From Streptomyces fildesensis (GTDB lineage: Bacteria; Actinomycetota; Actinomycetes; Streptomycetales; Streptomycetaceae), in NCBI RefSeq assembly GCF_016107395.1, contig NZ_JAAIKO010000002.1, positions 124,001 through 188,000 of the forward strand: 64,000 nt of DNA, in the 5' to 3' direction. The notes under the pieces were generated by a model. That model was not told the origin of the DNA and did not search any database. It saw only the letters and a list, made by a program, of their open reading frames with translations. The position numbers were made by a program, and so were the translations under genes. Of this stretch, positions 2,144-59,522 are shown piece after piece (within the stretch, counting starts at the first letter, position 1; the number at the start of each line of letters is the position of its first letter).

Positions 2144-2905
2144 ATGCGGGTCCATGTGGTGAGCGATGTGCACGGTGCGGCGGAGGCTCTGGCCAGGGCC
2201 GGAGACGGTGCGGACGCCTTGATCTGCCTCGGCGACCTCGTGCTCTTCCTGGACTACGCCGATCACTCACGGGGGATCTTCCCGGACCTCTTCGGCGCGG
2301 CGAACGCCTCGCGCATGGTCGCGCTGCGGACCGCCAAGCGCTTCGAGGAGGCCCGCGCCCTCGACCGCGAGCTGTGGGAGGGCATCGACCGGCGCGGCGC
2401 CATCGAGACCGCCGTACGGAAGCAGTACGCGGAACTCTTCGCGGCCTTTCCCGCGCCGACGTACGCCACCTACGGCAATGTCGACATTCCGGCGCTGTGG
2501 TCGGAGTACGCCACCGAGGGCACCACGGTCCTGGACGGCGGCACCGCCGAGATCGGCGGCCTGGTCTTCGGCTTCGTCGGCGGCGGACTGCGGACGGCGA
2601 TGCGCACCCCGTACGAGATCGACGAGGCCGAGTACGCCGGGAAGGTCGCGGCGCTCGGGCGGGTCGACGTGCTCTGCTCGCACATCCCGCCCGCCGTTCC
2701 CGAGCTCTGCTACGACACCGTCGCCCGCCGCTTCGAACGCGGCAGCGAGGCGCTGCTCGACGCGATCCGCACCACCCGCCCCAAGTACGCCCTCTTCGGC
2801 CATGTCCACCAGCCGCTGGTCCCGCGGATGCGGATCGGCAGGACCGAGTGCGTCAACGTCGGACACTTCAACGCCACCCGCAGGCCATGGGCCCTGGAGT
2901 GGTGA
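2144..2905 (+). CDS. Metallophosphoesterase family protein
   Basis: A 253-residue calcineurin-like phosphoesterase. Metal-ligand motifs seen in order are SDVHG near residue 7, a LGDLV (GDxx) motif near 32, the YGNVD (GNH/D) motif near 110, SHIPP near 180 and FGHVHQP (GHxH) near 220. Together they make a dinuclear metal site. The substrate is unknown; the family includes phosphodiesterases and protein phosphatases. The start is ATG with a TAGGCT box ending about 7 nt upstream, so the mRNA may have almost no leader. A GGTAACC direct repeat (2108-2114 and 2119-2125) precedes it. Confidence 0.88.
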   Translation: MRVHVVSDVHGAAEALARAGDGADALICLGDLVLFLDYADHSRGIFPDLFGAANASRMVALRTAKRFEEARALDRELWEGIDRRGAIETAVRKQYAELFAAFPAPTYATYGNVDIPALWSEYATEGTTVLDGGTAEIGGLVFGFVGGGLRTAMRTPYEIDEAEYAGKVAALGRVDVLCSHIPPAVPELCYDTVARRFERGSEALLDAIRTTRPKYALFGHVHQPLVPRMRIGRTECVNVGHFNATRRPWALEW

Positions 2906-2995
2906 GTGCCGGGGTGACAGTTGTTCGACCGGCAGGCGGTAGCCTGCACCAGCAGACCCAGACATACGGCGCGAAGTCCCGGAGGGGCCACAGCG

Positions 2996-3475
2996 ATGGC
3001 GGAACACACCAAGTCGAGCATCACCATCGAGGCGGCCCCGGCCGACGTCATGGGCGTCATCGCCGATTTCACCCGCTATCCCGAGTGGACCGGTGAGGTG
3101 AAGGAGGCGGAGATCCTCTCCGCCGACGCCGAGGGCCGCGCGGAGCGGGTCCGGCTGCTGCTGGACGCCGGGGCGATCAAGGACGACCACACGCTCGCCT
3201 ACCGCTGGGTCGGCGACAGCGAGGTCCACTGGTCGCTGGTCAAGTCCCAGATGCTCCGCACCCTGGACGGCTCGTACGCCGTCGCCCCGCTGGACGGCGG
3301 CGCGCGCACCGAGGTCACCTACCAGCTGACGGTCGACGTCAAGATCCCGATGCTCGGCATGATCAAGCGCAAGGCCGAGAAGGTCATCATCGACCGCGCA
3401 CTCGCCGGTCTGAAGAAGCGCGTCGAATCCGGTCCGCCCGCCGGCGCGCCCGACAGTCCGCCCGACAAGAGCTGA
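2996..3475 (+). CDS. SRPBCC (polyketide cyclase/START-like) family protein
   Basis: A 159-residue single-domain protein of the SRPBCC helix-grip fold. These proteins bind hydrophobic ligands in a deep cavity. The N-terminal strand (SSITIEAAPADVMGVIADF), the YPEWTGEV motif and the long C-terminal helix are typical. The ATG at 2996 is chosen because GGAGGGG lies 8 nt upstream; in-frame codons further upstream lack such a site. It sits 5 nt before the ArsA-like ATPase, so the two are probably co-transcribed. The ligand is unknown. A small hairpin (GCAGGC-ggta-GCCTGC, 2932-2947) precedes the gene. Confidence 0.85.
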   Translation: MAEHTKSSITIEAAPADVMGVIADFTRYPEWTGEVKEAEILSADAEGRAERVRLLLDAGAIKDDHTLAYRWVGDSEVHWSLVKSQMLRTLDGSYAVAPLDGGARTEVTYQLTVDVKIPMLGMIKRKAEKVIIDRALAGLKKRVESGPPAGAPDSPPDKS

Positions 3476-55317: not shown

Positions 55318-56100
55318 ATGGCCGGACCGACCACCGCGGAACGCGGCGGGAAGGCGGAGCCGACCGCCCCCCCGCGTCGCACGCCCGCCCGCCGCAAGCG
55401 CGCGCGCCGCGCCGTGCTGATCCTGCTCGTCCTCGTCACCGTGCTGGCCGCCGCCGGGACATGGCTGGTCTATGGCTCGTCCTGGCTGCGGGCGCAGCAC
55501 GTCACGGTCAGCGGCACCAAGGTGCTCACCGCCGACGAGGTGCGCGCCGCCGCGGCCGTACCGCTCGGGGGACCGCTCGCCTCGGTCGACACCGGCGCCG
55601 TCGAACACCGGCTGCTCGCCGCCCTGCCGCGGATCGCCGAGGTGACCGTCGAACGGGACTGGCCGCACGGCATCGGCCTGAAAGTGACCGAGAGAACGCC
55701 GTCCGCGGTACTCAAGAGCGGCGAAAAGTTCATCGAAGTGGACGCGGAAGGCGTACGTTTCGCCACCGTCGTCACCGCGCCGGCCGGTGCGCCCCTCGTG
55801 GAATTGACTCCGGATCAGTCTCCGAGCCTTCTCCACTTCGGAACAAAGAGCCTGCTGCGGGCGGCCGTCGAAGTCTCCGCGAGTCTCCCCGATTCCGTCC
55901 GCAAGGATGCCCGTGTCATCAGGATGCGGTCCTATGACAGCGTCACCGTCGAACTCTCCGGCGGCCGGACGGTGGTGTGGGGGAGCTCCGAAGAGGGTGA
56001 GCAGAAGGCGTCGGTGCTGATCGCTCTGATGAAGGCGGCGAAAAACGCGAACAGATTCGATGTAAGTGCTCCCAGCGCCCCTGCGGCATCGGGAAGTTGA
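55318..56100 (+). CDS. ftsQ: Cell division protein FtsQ
   Basis: A 260-residue bitopic protein. A basic cytoplasmic tail of about 36 residues precedes one transmembrane helix (about 38-58). A POTRA domain (LRAQHVTVSGTKVLTADEV) and a beta domain follow, including RVVERDWP-like and VTERTPSAV segments. It joins FtsL and FtsB in the divisome. It starts with ATG behind AGGAAGGGG, 92 bp after murG. A 249-bp region with ftsZ promoter elements follows. Confidence 0.94.
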   Translation: MAGPTTAERGGKAEPTAPPRRTPARRKRARRAVLILLVLVTVLAAAGTWLVYGSSWLRAQHVTVSGTKVLTADEVRAAAAVPLGGPLASVDTGAVEHRLLAALPRIAEVTVERDWPHGIGLKVTERTPSAVLKSGEKFIEVDAEGVRFATVVTAPAGAPLVELTPDQSPSLLHFGTKSLLRAAVEVSASLPDSVRKDARVIRMRSYDSVTVELSGGRTVVWGSSEEGEQKASVLIALMKAAKNANRFDVSAPSAPAASGS

Positions 56101-56183
56101 CGCCGAGTATCCCGGTTCGCCCCCTGGTTCGCCCGACCGGGCCGTGATCACATAGGGTCAAAAGAAAAACGGGAGGTTCGGCG

Positions 56184-56258
56184 TGTTCGTTGAACGCACA
56201 CCGCTTGTCGACTTAGTGTCCTGTCCCAAGGAACGCATGGGACAGGCATACTGGTAAC
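56184..56258 (+). CDS. Possible leader ORF upstream of ftsZ
   Basis: A 24-codon ORF with GGGAGG 6 nt before its GTG. It begins [12 protein letters not shown] and ends at TAA. Codon 11 is TTA, which in Streptomyces needs the bldA tRNA. The stop overlaps the 5' arm of a hairpin. A likely promoter lies inside it, so only read-through mRNA from ftsQ would carry the whole ORF. It may be coincidental. Confidence 0.3.
56191..56220 (+). promoter_or_regulatory. Probable ftsZ promoter
   Basis: TTGAAC (56191-56196) and TAGTGT (56215-56220) are 18 bp apart, about 130 bp upstream of ftsZ. GTGTC at 56217-56221 is the complement of GACAC, the core bound by WhiA, a known activator of ftsZ in sporulation. 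Streptomyces ftsZ is known to have several promoters. Confidence 0.55.
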
Positions 56259-56280
56259 CCTAAACCTCAGCGTTAGGGTT
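56221..56280 (+). promoter_or_regulatory. Two hairpins in the ftsZ leader
   Basis: CTGTCCC (56221-56227) pairs with GGGACAG (56239-56245). AACCCTAA (56256-56263) pairs perfectly with TTAGGGTT (56273-56280). They lie 70-130 bp before the ftsZ start, downstream of the predicted promoter, and would be in its transcript. Their function is unknown. Confidence 0.5.
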
Positions 56281-56349
56281 CGGGGCAGCACCGGCGAACG
56301 TACCGACCGTCCCACAGGCATACGTAACTCGAGGCGAGAGGCCTTCGAC

Positions 56350-57570
56350 GTGGCAGCACCGCAGAACTACCTCGCAGTCATCAAGGTCGTCGGAATCGGC
56401 GGCGGTGGCGTCAATGCCATCAACCGGATGATCGAGGTCGGTCTCAAGGGCGTCGAGTTCATCGCGATCAACACCGATGCGCAGGCCCTCCTGATGAGCG
56501 ACGCCGACGTCAAGCTCGACGTCGGCCGCGAACTCACCCGCGGCCTCGGCGCCGGCGCGAACCCCGATGTCGGCCGCAAGGCCGCCGAGGACCACCGCGA
56601 AGAGATCGAAGAAGTGCTCAAGGGCGCAGACATGGTCTTCGTCACCGCGGGCGAGGGCGGCGGCACCGGTACCGGCGGCGCACCCGTGGTCGCGCATATC
56701 GCCCGCTCGCTGGGCGCCCTGACGATCGGTGTGGTCACCCGGCCCTTCACCTTCGAGGGACGTCGCCGCGCCAACCAGGCCGAGGACGGCATCGCCGGTC
56801 TCCGCGAAAATGTCGACACTCTCATCGTGATCCCGAACGACCGGCTGCTGTCCATCTCGGACCGCCAGGTCAGCGTGCTCGACGCGTTCCGGTCCGCGGA
56901 CCAGGTGCTGCTGTCCGGCGTGCAGGGGATCACCGATCTCATCACCACCCCGGGTCTGATCAACCTGGACTTCGCCGATGTGAAGTCCGTGATGTCCGAA
57001 GCAGGTTCCGCCCTGATGGGCATCGGTTCGGCCCGTGGCGACGACCGCGCGGTAGCGGCCGCGGAGATGGCCATCTCCTCGCCGCTGCTCGAAGCGTCCA
57101 TCGACGGCGCCCGCGGCGTGCTGCTCTCCATCTCCGGCGGCTCCGACCTCGGCCTGTTCGAGATCAACGAGTCCGCCCAGCTGGTGAGCGAGGCCGCGCA
57201 CCCCGAGGCCAACATCATCTTCGGTGCGGTCATCGATGACGCGCTCGGCGACGAGGTCCGGGTCACCGTGATCGCGGCCGGCTTCGACGGCGGCCAGCCG
57301 CCGCCCAAGGGCAACCGCGACAAGGTGCTCGGCGCGTACAGCGGTCGCGAGGAGACTCCCGCCACCGGACCTGCCCGGGTCGGCAGCCAGGCCGAGGCCC
57401 CGCGCCCGACCTCCTACGGCGGTCTCGGCAGTGTGCCGGTCCGTGCCGAGGAGCCGGAGCCGGTCGCTGAGGTCCCGCCGTCCCCGGTCACCCCGCCGCA
57501 CGTGCCGCCGGCCCGTCCGTACCAGGACTCCGCGGCCGAGGAGCTGGACGTACCCGATTTCCTGAAGTGA
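56350..57570 (+). CDS. ftsZ: Cell division GTPase FtsZ
   Basis: A 406-residue tubulin homologue that forms the Z-ring. The nucleotide-binding segments are [20 protein letters not shown] and the tubulin signature [15 protein letters not shown]. The T7 loop [11 protein letters not shown] follows. A variable linker of about 75 residues ends in the conserved C-terminal peptide LDVPDFLK, which binds SepF and FtsW in actinobacteria. It starts with GTG behind GAGAGG. In Streptomyces FtsZ makes the sporulation ladders. The ylmD gene usually found next is missing here. Confidence 0.97.
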
Positions 57571-57641
57571 GCTTCCCTCAGTTCCCTGGGTGATGTGACC
57601 TTCTTGTCCCCTTGTTCGTGAAGTGGCCGGGTTCGGCCCCT

Positions 57642-57701
57642 CGGTGAACGGCGCGCATTTCGTCCCTCTTTACGGAGGGGCGCGATGAGCGCCGTTCGCT
57701 G
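57642..57701. repeat. Long inverted repeat in place of ylmD
   Basis: A 27-bp stem with two mismatches and a 6-nt loop: arms 57642-57668 and 57675-57701, including GAACGGCGC/GCGCCGTTC and CCCTC/GAGGG. It lies 71 bp after ftsZ. It can act as a terminator or processing site, uncoupling ftsZ from ylmE. It has no U-run. Confidence 0.8.
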
Positions 57702-57782
57702 TGTATCCGCCCAACTCGCCCGATTCGAGACGGCTATGGGTGAGATATCCCATGTTCGTATCATCGGATCGACTGAAGGAAC

Positions 57783-58514
57783 GTGAGCGAGGCAGTGACG
57801 GATCGCAAGGCCCAACTGGCCGCGAATCTGGCCCGGGTCGAGGAGCGCATCACCGCCGCGTGCGACGCGGCGGGCCGCGACCGCAAGGACGTGACGCTGG
57901 TGGTGGTCACCAAGACCTACCCCGCGAGCGATGTGCGTTTTCTCTCGGAACTCGGTGTTCAGCAGGTCGCGGAGAACCGCGACCAGGACGCCGCCCCGAA
58001 GGCTGCCGCGTGTGCGGATCTGCCGCTGACCTGGCATTTCGTGGGTCAGTTGCAGACCAATAAAGTCCGTTCCGTGGTCGGTTACGCCGATGTCGTGCAC
58101 TCCGTCGACCGGCTCCGGCTGGTCGGCGCGCTGTCCACCGCGGCGGTCGCCCGCGGCCGCGAGGTGGGCTGTCTGGTCCAGGTCGCCCTTGACACCGAGT
58201 CAGGAACCCAGGGCAGCAGGGGCGGAGTCGCGCCCGACGTCGTCGGCGGCCTCGCCGACGCGATCGCCGCGGCGCCGGGCCTCCGGCTCGACGGGCTGAT
58301 GACGGTCGCTCCGCTCGACGGCCCGTACCGGGGCCAACCCCGCGCCGCCTTCGATCGGCTGGCGGAAATCTCATCCGGCCTGCGCGCGGCCCATCCGGCT
58401 GCCACCATGGTCTCGGCAGGGATGAGCGCCGACCTGGAGCAGGCGGTGGCGGCGGGAGCGACACATGTACGCGTCGGTACTGCGGTACTCGGAGTCCGTC
58501 CCGGGCTCCGGTAA
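57783..58514 (+). CDS. ylmE: YggS/YlmE family PLP-binding protein
   Basis: A 243-residue pyridoxal-phosphate-binding homeostasis protein with an alanine-racemase-like N-terminal barrel and no racemase domain. The PLP lysine is K44 in VVTKTYPAS. Other segments are WHFVGQLQTNK, HSVDRL, LDGLMTVAP, SAGMSADLEQAV and THVRVGTAVLG. The GTG at 57783 is used, but AAGGA is only 2 nt away; the in-frame GTG at 57798 is an alternative. In Streptomyces this gene normally follows ylmD. An ATGGG-N8-CCCAT palindrome (57736-57753) lies upstream. Confidence 0.93.
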   Translation: MSEAVTDRKAQLAANLARVEERITAACDAAGRDRKDVTLVVVTKTYPASDVRFLSELGVQQVAENRDQDAAPKAAACADLPLTWHFVGQLQTNKVRSVVGYADVVHSVDRLRLVGALSTAAVARGREVGCLVQVALDTESGTQGSRGGVAPDVVGGLADAIAAAPGLRLDGLMTVAPLDGPYRGQPRAAFDRLAEISSGLRAAHPAATMVSAGMSADLEQAVAAGATHVRVGTAVLGVRPGLR

Positions 58515-58578
58515 CGTCACCAAACAAGTCGGACCACAGCAATAAATATGGTCTTTCCCCGCTGAGAGGACGCAGAGC

Positions 58579-59175
58579 ATGGCCGGCGCGATGCGCAAGA
58601 TGGCGGTCTACCTCGGCCTCGTGGAGGACGACGGGTACGACGGCCCGGGATTCGATCCCGACGACGAGTTCGAACCCGAGCCGGAGCCTGAGCGCAACCA
58701 CAGGCCACGCAGCCAGCACAATCAGCACAATGAGCTCGCCCAGCACCAGCCACAACGGGACGAACCGGCACGACTCGTCCATGCGCCGGCGCCCCGCGAA
58801 CCGCGGATCGCCCCAGTGGCGTCCATCACACCCGAACGTCACAGCATGGAGAAGAACGCACCGGTGATCATGCCCAAGGTCGTGTCCGAGCGTGAGCCCT
58901 ACCGGATCACCACACTTCACCCCCGCACGTACAACGAAGCCCGTACCATCGGGGAACACTTCCGCGAGGGCACACCGGTGATCATGAATCTGACGGAGAT
59001 GGACGACACGGACGCAAAGCGTCTTGTCGACTTCGCCGCCGGCCTGGTCTTCGGCCTGCACGGCAGCATCGAGCGGGTGACGCAGAAGGTGTTCCTGCTG
59101 TCGCCTGCTAACGTCGATGTCACGGCGGAGGACAAGGCCCGCATCGCCGAGGGCGGGTTCTTCAACCAGAGCTGA
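58579..59175 (+). CDS. sepF: Cell division protein SepF
   Basis: A 198-residue protein. An N-terminal amphipathic membrane-targeting helix ([18 protein letters not shown]) is followed by an acidic, His/Gln-rich linker (about 20-100). The SepF core (about 105-190) contains [19 protein letters not shown] and [16 protein letters not shown]. SepF anchors FtsZ to the membrane in actinobacteria, which lack FtsA. It starts with ATG after GAGAGGA, 64 bp after ylmE. Confidence 0.95.
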
Positions 59176-59237
59176 GCACCACACACCGAGGAAATCCGGC
59201 CACCAGGCCGAAGGCGAGCAGGGGAGAGGGACGCGCG

Positions 59238-59522
59238 ATGAGCTACGCACTACAGGTGCTCTACATCGTGCTGATGTGCTTCCTGATCGTGCTGATCTTC
59301 CGGTTGGTGATGGATTACGTCTTCCAGTTCGCGCGCTCGTGGCAACCTGGGAAGCCGATGGTGGTGGTCCTTGAGGCCACCTACACTGTCACCGATCCGC
59401 CACTCAAGCTTCTGCGGCGGTTCATTCCGCCGCTGCGTCTCGGGGGCGTGGCGCTCGACCTGTCCTTCTTCGTATTGATGATCATCGTGCTCATCCTGCT
59501 CCGCGTTGTCGGGAGTCTGTGA
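59238..59522 (+). CDS. ylmG: YggT/YlmG family membrane protein
   Basis: A 94-residue protein with two transmembrane helices (about 5-27 and 68-90) separated by a short loop with the RRFIPPLRLGGVALDLSF motif. The YggT family is linked to division and membrane organisation, with an unclear mechanism. It starts with ATG behind AGGGGAGAGGG. Between sepF (62 bp upstream) and divIVA (49 bp downstream), it keeps the usual Gram-positive order. Confidence 0.93.
   Translation: MSYALQVLYIVLMCFLIVLIFRLVMDYVFQFARSWQPGKPMVVVLEATYTVTDPPLKLLRRFIPPLRLGGVALDLSFFVLMIIVLILLRVVGSL

Follow-up and report, generated by a model that had tools for sequence, protein, structure and literature searches.

A hairpin downstream of ftsZ in Streptomycetaceae: a candidate mRNA 3' element in the first codons of ylmD that is kept where ylmD is missing from the locus

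Across the Streptomycetaceae, ftsZ is followed by a very stable hairpin that is encoded within the first codons of ylmD, and that is also found in ftsZ-ylmE gaps from which ylmD is missing. We lean towards reading this dual-coding hairpin as a functional 3' element of the ftsZ mRNA, which would constrain N-terminal residues of YlmD (a change of His to Arg is paired with one of Val to Ala), and which would have been kept at each displacement of ylmD by a foreign homolog, here called YlmD2 (our own label for a distinct YlmD lineage). What would be new, judging from sequence, is a terminator- or attenuator-like hairpin that is written in the codons of the next gene and outlives that gene.

The dosage of ftsZ decides sporulation septation in streptomycetes. 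In Streptomyces coelicolor, ftsZ, ylmD and ylmE are reported to form an operon in which stop and start codons overlap, and transcription of ftsZ, not that of ylmD and ylmE, to rise during sporulation (PMC5943314); an RNA element at the junction, inside the next gene, would, if real, explain why expression of ftsZ differs from that of ylmD/ylmE. Genomes in which the gene was displaced and the RNA element kept amount to a natural experiment, and represent lineages in which YlmD and YlmE, proteins reported as functionally antagonistic, are unlinked. The statement, made in 2018, that all Streptomyces genomes analysed have the ftsZ-ylmD-ylmE operon (PMC5943314) fails for some genomes.

The ftsZ-ylmE junction of Streptomyces fildesensis

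The window, a 64,000-nt stretch of the S. fildesensis genome, contains ftsZ, ylmE and an ORF that we take to be sepF from synteny (Table 1). An earlier note on this DNA had reported that ylmD is missing between ftsZ and ylmE, unlike in other Streptomyces, and the 212-bp gap was confirmed: ylmD lies there, within about 150 bp of ylmE, in 30 of the 35 genomes of the genus, and away from ylmE in the remaining five, namely this genome (G000), G018, G019 (Streptomyces sp. H39-S7), G020 (SPB162) and G021 (PH10-H1), hereafter the clade. The gap measures 188-220 bp in all five clade genomes (the figure for G020 depends on the stop codon chosen, the alternative being 215), and in S. fildesensis the ORF list shows no ORF of at least 80 aa wholly inside it. 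A 120-aa GTG frame at 57701-58063 overlaps the gap and, in another frame, ylmE; it was judged a chance ORF.

Table 1. Features of the ftsZ-ylmE junction in the S. fildesensis window (positions of the window)
Feature	Position	Strand	Basis
ftsZ (406 aa)	56350..57570	+	ORF; protein shares 95-99% identity with its counterparts in the four sister genomes along most of the sequence
ftsZ-ylmE gap without ylmD body, 212 bp	57571..57782	+	ORF limits and genus comparison
RNA hairpin, 26 bp (13 + 4 + 9 pairs, two 1x1 mismatches, 4-nt loop)	57642..57701	+	Folding
ylmD 5' coding relic, left outer arm of hairpin (codons V N G A H F)	57644..57661	+	17 nt identical to the 5' end of ylmD in G014; aligned with ylmD-keeping loci
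Hairpin core matched by covariance model R1	57646..57697	+	37.6 bits, E 3.6e-4
ylmD 5' coding relic, right outer arm of hairpin (relatives: GGGTGAGCGCCGTTC)	57684..57697	+	Alignment and R1
Conserved block between hairpin and ylmE	57741..57770	+	Across five genomes, 24 of the 30 columns do not vary
GAAGGA, likely Shine-Dalgarno sequence of ylmE	57775..57780	+	Spotted by eye
ylmE (YggS-like PLP-fold protein, 243 aa, GTG start)	57783..58514	+	PF01168, 69.1 bits, above the curated cut-off
sepF (presumed)	58579..59175	+	ORF; order ftsZ-ylmE-sepF the same in relatives

Of the 60-nt folds in the gap, the best has a free energy of -43.7 kcal/mol, against -23.8 +/- 3.1 kcal/mol in dinucleotide shuffles (none of 100 was as low), and a 231-nt fold across the gap gives a z-score of -4.0. 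The earlier description of the stem, 27 bp with two mismatches, comes close to the 26 bp counted here. Among 1406 150-nt segments of the window, taken from both strands (median -29.6 kcal/mol), 40 fold at -41 kcal/mol or below; the gap hairpin is unusual, yet stems just as strong do occur elsewhere in such DNA. A similar arm pattern was found once in the 9.39-Mb genome, at the ftsZ-ylmE gap, and a search of the whole genome with R1, a covariance model built from ylmD-keeping loci only, returned the gap hairpin as the sole match at E <= 1.

The earlier note had seen no laccase-domain remnant in the gap, and held that finding ylmD remnants there would speak against its reading; the outer arms of the hairpin are such a remnant, a relic of the 5' end of ylmD. 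A search of the five-genome gap for a remnant of the 3' end gave E values of 0.027-0.93, compared with 0.047 for the best shuffled control, and was not significant.

As in an intrinsic terminator, the hairpin is stable and GC-rich and lies shortly 3' of a stop codon on the transcribed strand. A simple terminator scan called none at this position, where no U-run directly follows the stem, and Rfam 15 yielded nothing at E <= 1 for window positions 56000-59300 or for positions 2200-3200 of locus L017. It is plausible that the hairpin obstructs transcription from ftsZ into ylmE, and an uncoupling of ylmE from ftsZ transcription is likewise plausible. The conserved block upstream of ylmE, which contains TATCAT at 57759-57764, is a possible candidate for a ylmE promoter; inspection of this region for a promoter found only the block with its TATCAT/TACCAT, and a convincing -35 element was absent.

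The hairpin within ylmD of relatives, and selection on the RNA stem

According to the earlier note, the hairpin occupies the place of ylmD, and the loss of the gene may reflect a deletion at a palindrome. Neither suggestion survived comparison with relatives: a homologous hairpin lies within the first codons of ylmD in all 99 Streptomycetaceae loci examined that have ylmD beside ftsZ, comprising 30 from this genus, 49 from the genus of Kitasatospora (so assigned from its named members; g14), including a broken copy in G103, and 20 from other Streptomycetaceae. Comparing the gap across relatives, as that note had proposed, thus finds ylmD missing there in 5 of 35 genus genomes, and the hairpin itself older than the loss. 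The g14 loci represent 49 of the 52 genomes with a dcw-type YlmD; in G134, G200 and G212 the ylmD locus lies at contig edges. A hairpin newly arisen in ylmD-less genomes had been considered as a candidate, and was rejected when folds extended past the short ftsZ-ylmD gaps revealed the same hairpin in ylmD coding sequence.

The hairpin is 53 nt long, takes up about the first 10-25 codons of ylmD, and lies 20-100 nt past the ftsZ stop codon in other Streptomycetaceae; arms at the ylmD start are exemplified by GAACGGCGCGCACTTCGCC...GGCGGGGTGAGCGCCGTTC and, in the g14 version, by GGTGCTCACTTCGCC...GGCGGGGTGAGCACC. Within the 150 nt that follow ftsZ, the best 60-nt fold has a median of -42.9 kcal/mol in this genus, -41.9 in g14 and -45.1 in the other Streptomycetaceae, the weakest single fold among ylmD-keeping loci being -25.6 (this genus); the corresponding fold in the five ylmD-less genomes is -45.0. 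At the ylmD start, R1 scores 68.7-82 bits in 41 named Streptomyces and related loci, and Yinghuangia, at 44 bits, is the weakest of the 42 ylmD-keeping loci given. At E 0.01, R1 matches 178 of 200 genomes, although matches in ylmD-keeping genomes are not independent evidence: R1 itself derives from such genomes, and the protein motif also keeps the sequence conserved. At the same threshold it matches three of the five clade members and, among the YlmD2-bearing g14 genomes listed in the sample, only G162, the others being missed because their inner stems have diverged; position, arm similarity and weak local scores suggest that the other g14 gap hairpins are homologous.

GC-rich coding for a conserved N-terminal motif might generate such a hairpin as a by-product, surviving by chance in recent deletions, and in ylmD-keeping genomes the hairpin does encode a conserved GAHFAFTDRWGGVS stretch. 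This explanation is made extremely improbable by the choice among synonymous codons: with protein and local codon usage held constant, the mean z-score of the hairpin is -4.39 (range -3.49 to -5.81), the pattern holds at 33 of 33 loci (taken from 98), and 3 of 6600 nulls were as low as observed, compared with averages of -0.8 to +0.1, about -0.5, for windows elsewhere in ylmD. YlmD2, moreover, has a similar protein motif without the hairpin, the homologous window in 40 ylmD2 genes giving mean z-scores of 0.63, 0.24 and -0.02 by group. In the five clade genomes, finally, the inner stem (57661-57680) is invariant in 5 of 20 columns but still pairs, the outer arms being 83-95% invariant. All 49 g14 loci use GGT GCT, codons with usages of 0.157 and 0.047.

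As expected of a conserved structured RNA, compensatory changes exceed those in shuffled controls and with slid partners. The covariation score is 0.126, compared with 0.087 in shuffles (0 of 500 as high) and 0.032-0.069 for slid partners, and 60 cells are changed on both sides of a pair, compared with 25.8 in shuffles (0 of 500), many of these covarying cells representing one switch between genera and hence few events. Pair 7-47 is CG in 31 sequences and UA in 31; pair 12-42 is AU in 60 and GC in two, the GC going with the His-to-Arg and Val-to-Ala changes.

The inverted repeat at the junction could also act as DNA, in the form of a protein site, a cruciform or a deletion hot spot that removed ylmD. 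We consider this very improbable, as the pairing makes use of G-U in the transcribed sense (220 G-U pairs in sense versus 25 in antisense, and 49 versus 6), and as the hairpin predates the loss of ylmD and sits at one edge of the deleted stretch. The sense strand folds more stably than the antisense strand in all 62 distinct hairpins from ylmD-keeping loci and in 20 of 22 ylmD-less gaps, a comparison that for the gaps favours sense, because their window was picked on the sense strand. Each of the 22 readable ylmD-less gaps (five from the clade and 17 from g14; the gap of G206, which holds a run of N, was left out) keeps a hairpin of -40 to -60 kcal/mol, which beats 100 of 100 shuffles in 21 cases and 99 of 100 in one. 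Selection of the stem as RNA is well supported at the level of sequence: codon choice and covariation both point to it, as do the strand asymmetry, the lack of the hairpin in ylmD2 and its persistence where ylmD has decayed. Four ftsZ-ylmE gaps (G162, G206, G071 and G129; loci L146, L147, L149 and L151) share GTGCGATCATCTG 3' of the hairpin, a motif that might serve as promoter or operator of ylmE.

YlmD2 and the displacement of native ylmD

Taken genome-wide, the loss of ylmD described earlier does not hold: a genome search found a single PF02578 gene, intact and on another contig (G000:C338:44083-44796, minus strand), which rules out the candidate explanation that ylmD was lost from the genome. 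Its product, a YlmD2, matches the full profile (231 bits against a cut-off of 22.9; residues 12-235 on profile positions 1-238), and is in this respect like the YfiH/PgeF (YlmD) family of peptidoglycan-editing amidases, differing as a separate lineage encoded outside the dcw cluster. The catalytic triad of Escherichia coli YfiH is reported as Asp89/Cys107/His124 (PMC8844914), and ADC and AAH segments are visible in the YlmD2 translation. The YfiH enzyme is described as a cytoplasmic amidase (PMC8844914), which would leave its gene free to move.

In all five clade genomes ylmD2 occupies a common ectopic site, flanked by genes for an alpha/beta hydrolase and a siderophore-interacting protein, with an ABC-2 transporter pair adjoining. 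In G018, ylmD2 and the gene for the siderophore-interacting protein are separated by an extra gene of ~473 aa (L033:10280-11701), which the other four genomes lack. At 25 loci from relatives around the siderophore-interacting protein, neither ylmD nor the alpha/beta hydrolase gene was found within flanks of up to 1.5 kb. Identity to the YlmD2 of this genome is 93-97% in G018-G020 and 87% in G021; to the ftsZ-adjacent YlmDs of its own genus it is ~54-60%, versus 76-83% for YlmE in the same comparisons. YlmD2 is 66-74% identical to YlmDs from 18 of 70 g14 genomes and 64-69% identical to those from 17 genomes of another family (f17), at loci with neither ftsZ nor ylmE in the flanks. In g14, 17 of the 18 ylmD2 genes share one helicase site; that of G170 (L170) is at a different one. 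Two intact YlmDs in one genome were found in none of the 35 genus or 70 g14 genomes; ylmD positions in the family-wide scan rest on the matches listed.

In a careful YlmD tree, the YlmD2 proteins of the Streptomycetaceae form one clade (support 100/97), which is joined by those of f17 (100/98). This tree took every third of the available genus YlmDs and every second of the 20 from other Streptomycetaceae, and omitted six long-branch rows (Kribbella, Arthrobacter, Oerskovia, Mobilicoccus, G644 and G746); a first tree used 12 of the 25 genus YlmDs that it could draw on, and the broken YlmD of G103 entered neither. Approximately unbiased (AU) tests rejected all Streptomycetaceae YlmDs as one clade (p 6.6e-4, at a cost of 46 lnL units) and the genus YlmDs together with YlmD2 (p 4.8e-7, 136 lnL units), the latter result speaking against orthology by vertical descent between YlmD2 and the ftsZ-adjacent YlmDs of the genus. 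A native gene relocated by rearrangement, vertically inherited and fast-evolving, would agree with the presence of one YlmD per genome, which points to a conserved function. We nevertheless regard such a relocation as highly improbable, given both rejections, which hold under the model used, and the joining of the YlmD2 clade with 17 genomes of another family. The ectopic YlmD of the clade was probably acquired horizontally.

A tree of FtsZ-YlmE-SepF places the five clade genomes inside their own genus (support 97), and the 18 YlmD2-bearing g14 genomes in four places within g14; for the losses of native ylmD in g14, the host tree needs four changes, of which strongly supported branches force two. 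These data fit a xenologous displacement, well supported, in which the ancestor of the clade would have gained YlmD2 far from ftsZ, the native dcw ylmD being lost afterwards. In G162 (g14), YlmD2 is present and both ends of native ylmD are kept between ftsZ and ylmE: gap positions 36-89 correspond to the 5' end and 174-325 to the 3' end of other g14 ylmDs (~85-98% DNA identity), and the 36-89 piece folds into a hairpin of -46 to -48 kcal/mol that scores 71.5 bits with R1. As an intermediate, G162 fits a gain of ylmD elsewhere and a subsequent decay of the native gene that spared the hairpin. In G103 (L164, g14), where no YlmD2 was found, the ftsZ-adjacent native ylmD is split in two frames, reflecting a pseudogene or a sequencing error.

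A proposed role at the ftsZ mRNA 3' end

That the hairpin is kept although ylmD has been replaced elsewhere suggests that it serves ftsZ. Our preferred reading as a whole, displacement of ylmD together with a spared hairpin that acts as a 3'-end or attenuator element of the ftsZ mRNA, seems to us fairly probable. Deletion of native ylmD would have spared the 53-nt hairpin, which would mark the 3' end of the ftsZ mRNA as a U-poor terminator or attenuator of the Streptomyces type, and as a block to exonucleases. With ylmD in place, translation coupled from ftsZ into ylmD would carry ribosomes through the hairpin, opening it and permitting partial read-through into ylmD-ylmE; where ylmD is gone, the untranslated hairpin would become a constitutive barrier, leaving ylmE-sepF to rely on one or more promoters of their own. 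Given the S. coelicolor operon, any termination there must be partial, and since promoters are reported inside ylmE and between ylmE and sepF (PMC5943314), sepF need not depend on read-through from ftsZ. We infer this role, terminator action included, from the features of the stem.

A hairpin that stabilises the mRNA 3' end, or directs RNase processing, could set the ratio of ftsZ to ylmDE mRNA without termination, a possible but rather doubtful explanation. It would accord with the very stable, U-poor stem, with its strand-specific stability, and with the reported operon and its unequal ftsZ and ylmDE levels (PMC5943314); sequence does not distinguish it from a terminator, as either would place a 3' end at the stem. 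Since YlmD is reported to be harmful without YlmE, and deletion of ylmD to rescue ylmE mutants (PMC5943314), expression ratios matter, and a structure located shortly after the ylmD start codon might instead keep translation of YlmD low. Persistence of the hairpin in 22 of 22 readable gaps that lack ylmD, and its absence from ylmD2 genes, render translational control quite improbable.

The favoured 3'-end element resembles known systems in part. Intrinsic terminators of Streptomyces, described in a Term-seq atlas as long, very stable and U-poor (PMC12207403), are alike in having few U's downstream, a position tens of nt past the stop codon, and stem covariation; the hairpin studied here differs in lying, in most relatives, within the next gene's coding sequence and in outliving that gene, and its terminating action is putative. 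The neighbourhood is that of the S. coelicolor and S. venezuelae ftsZ-ylmD-ylmE operon (PMC5943314, PMC5701809), with YlmE and SepF conserved, except that native ylmD has been lost here and its replacement lies elsewhere. The available text of these two papers makes no mention of the hairpin, and a literature search on ylmD/ftsZ hairpins and ylmD transfer, covering papers available in part, returned none describing the element.

In attenuators and polarity elements that overlap coding sequence, a stem that is opened by translation and otherwise closed tunes downstream expression, as the ftsZ hairpin would. The ftsZ hairpin differs from these in having no known leader peptide or ligand, and in being placed after ftsZ, within the start of ylmD.

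Beyond the Streptomycetaceae loci that share this hairpin, folding found no clear stem after ftsZ in Jiangella, G464 and several f17 genomes, so that the hairpin is not universal; several f17 genomes that lack ylmD beside ftsZ have 0-28 nt between ftsZ and ylmE, with no intergenic hairpin. Strong intergenic stems soon after the ftsZ stop codon occur in Yinghuangia, Kribbella, Mobilicoccus, G560 and G621, and strong stems at the start of ylmD after ftsZ in Arthrobacter sp. Leaf234 and Actinomyces sp. B33; hairpins on the 3' side of ftsZ may be a recurring feature of actinobacteria. The intergenic stem of Yinghuangia reaches -49 kcal/mol, and its ylmD-start stem is broken at many pairs. In Arthrobacter sp. 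Leaf234 (L139, -51.9 kcal/mol) and Actinomyces sp. B33 (L141, -46.3 kcal/mol), the hairpins are near-perfect, lie within 80 nt past the ftsZ stop codon, and are unlike those of Streptomyces in sequence.
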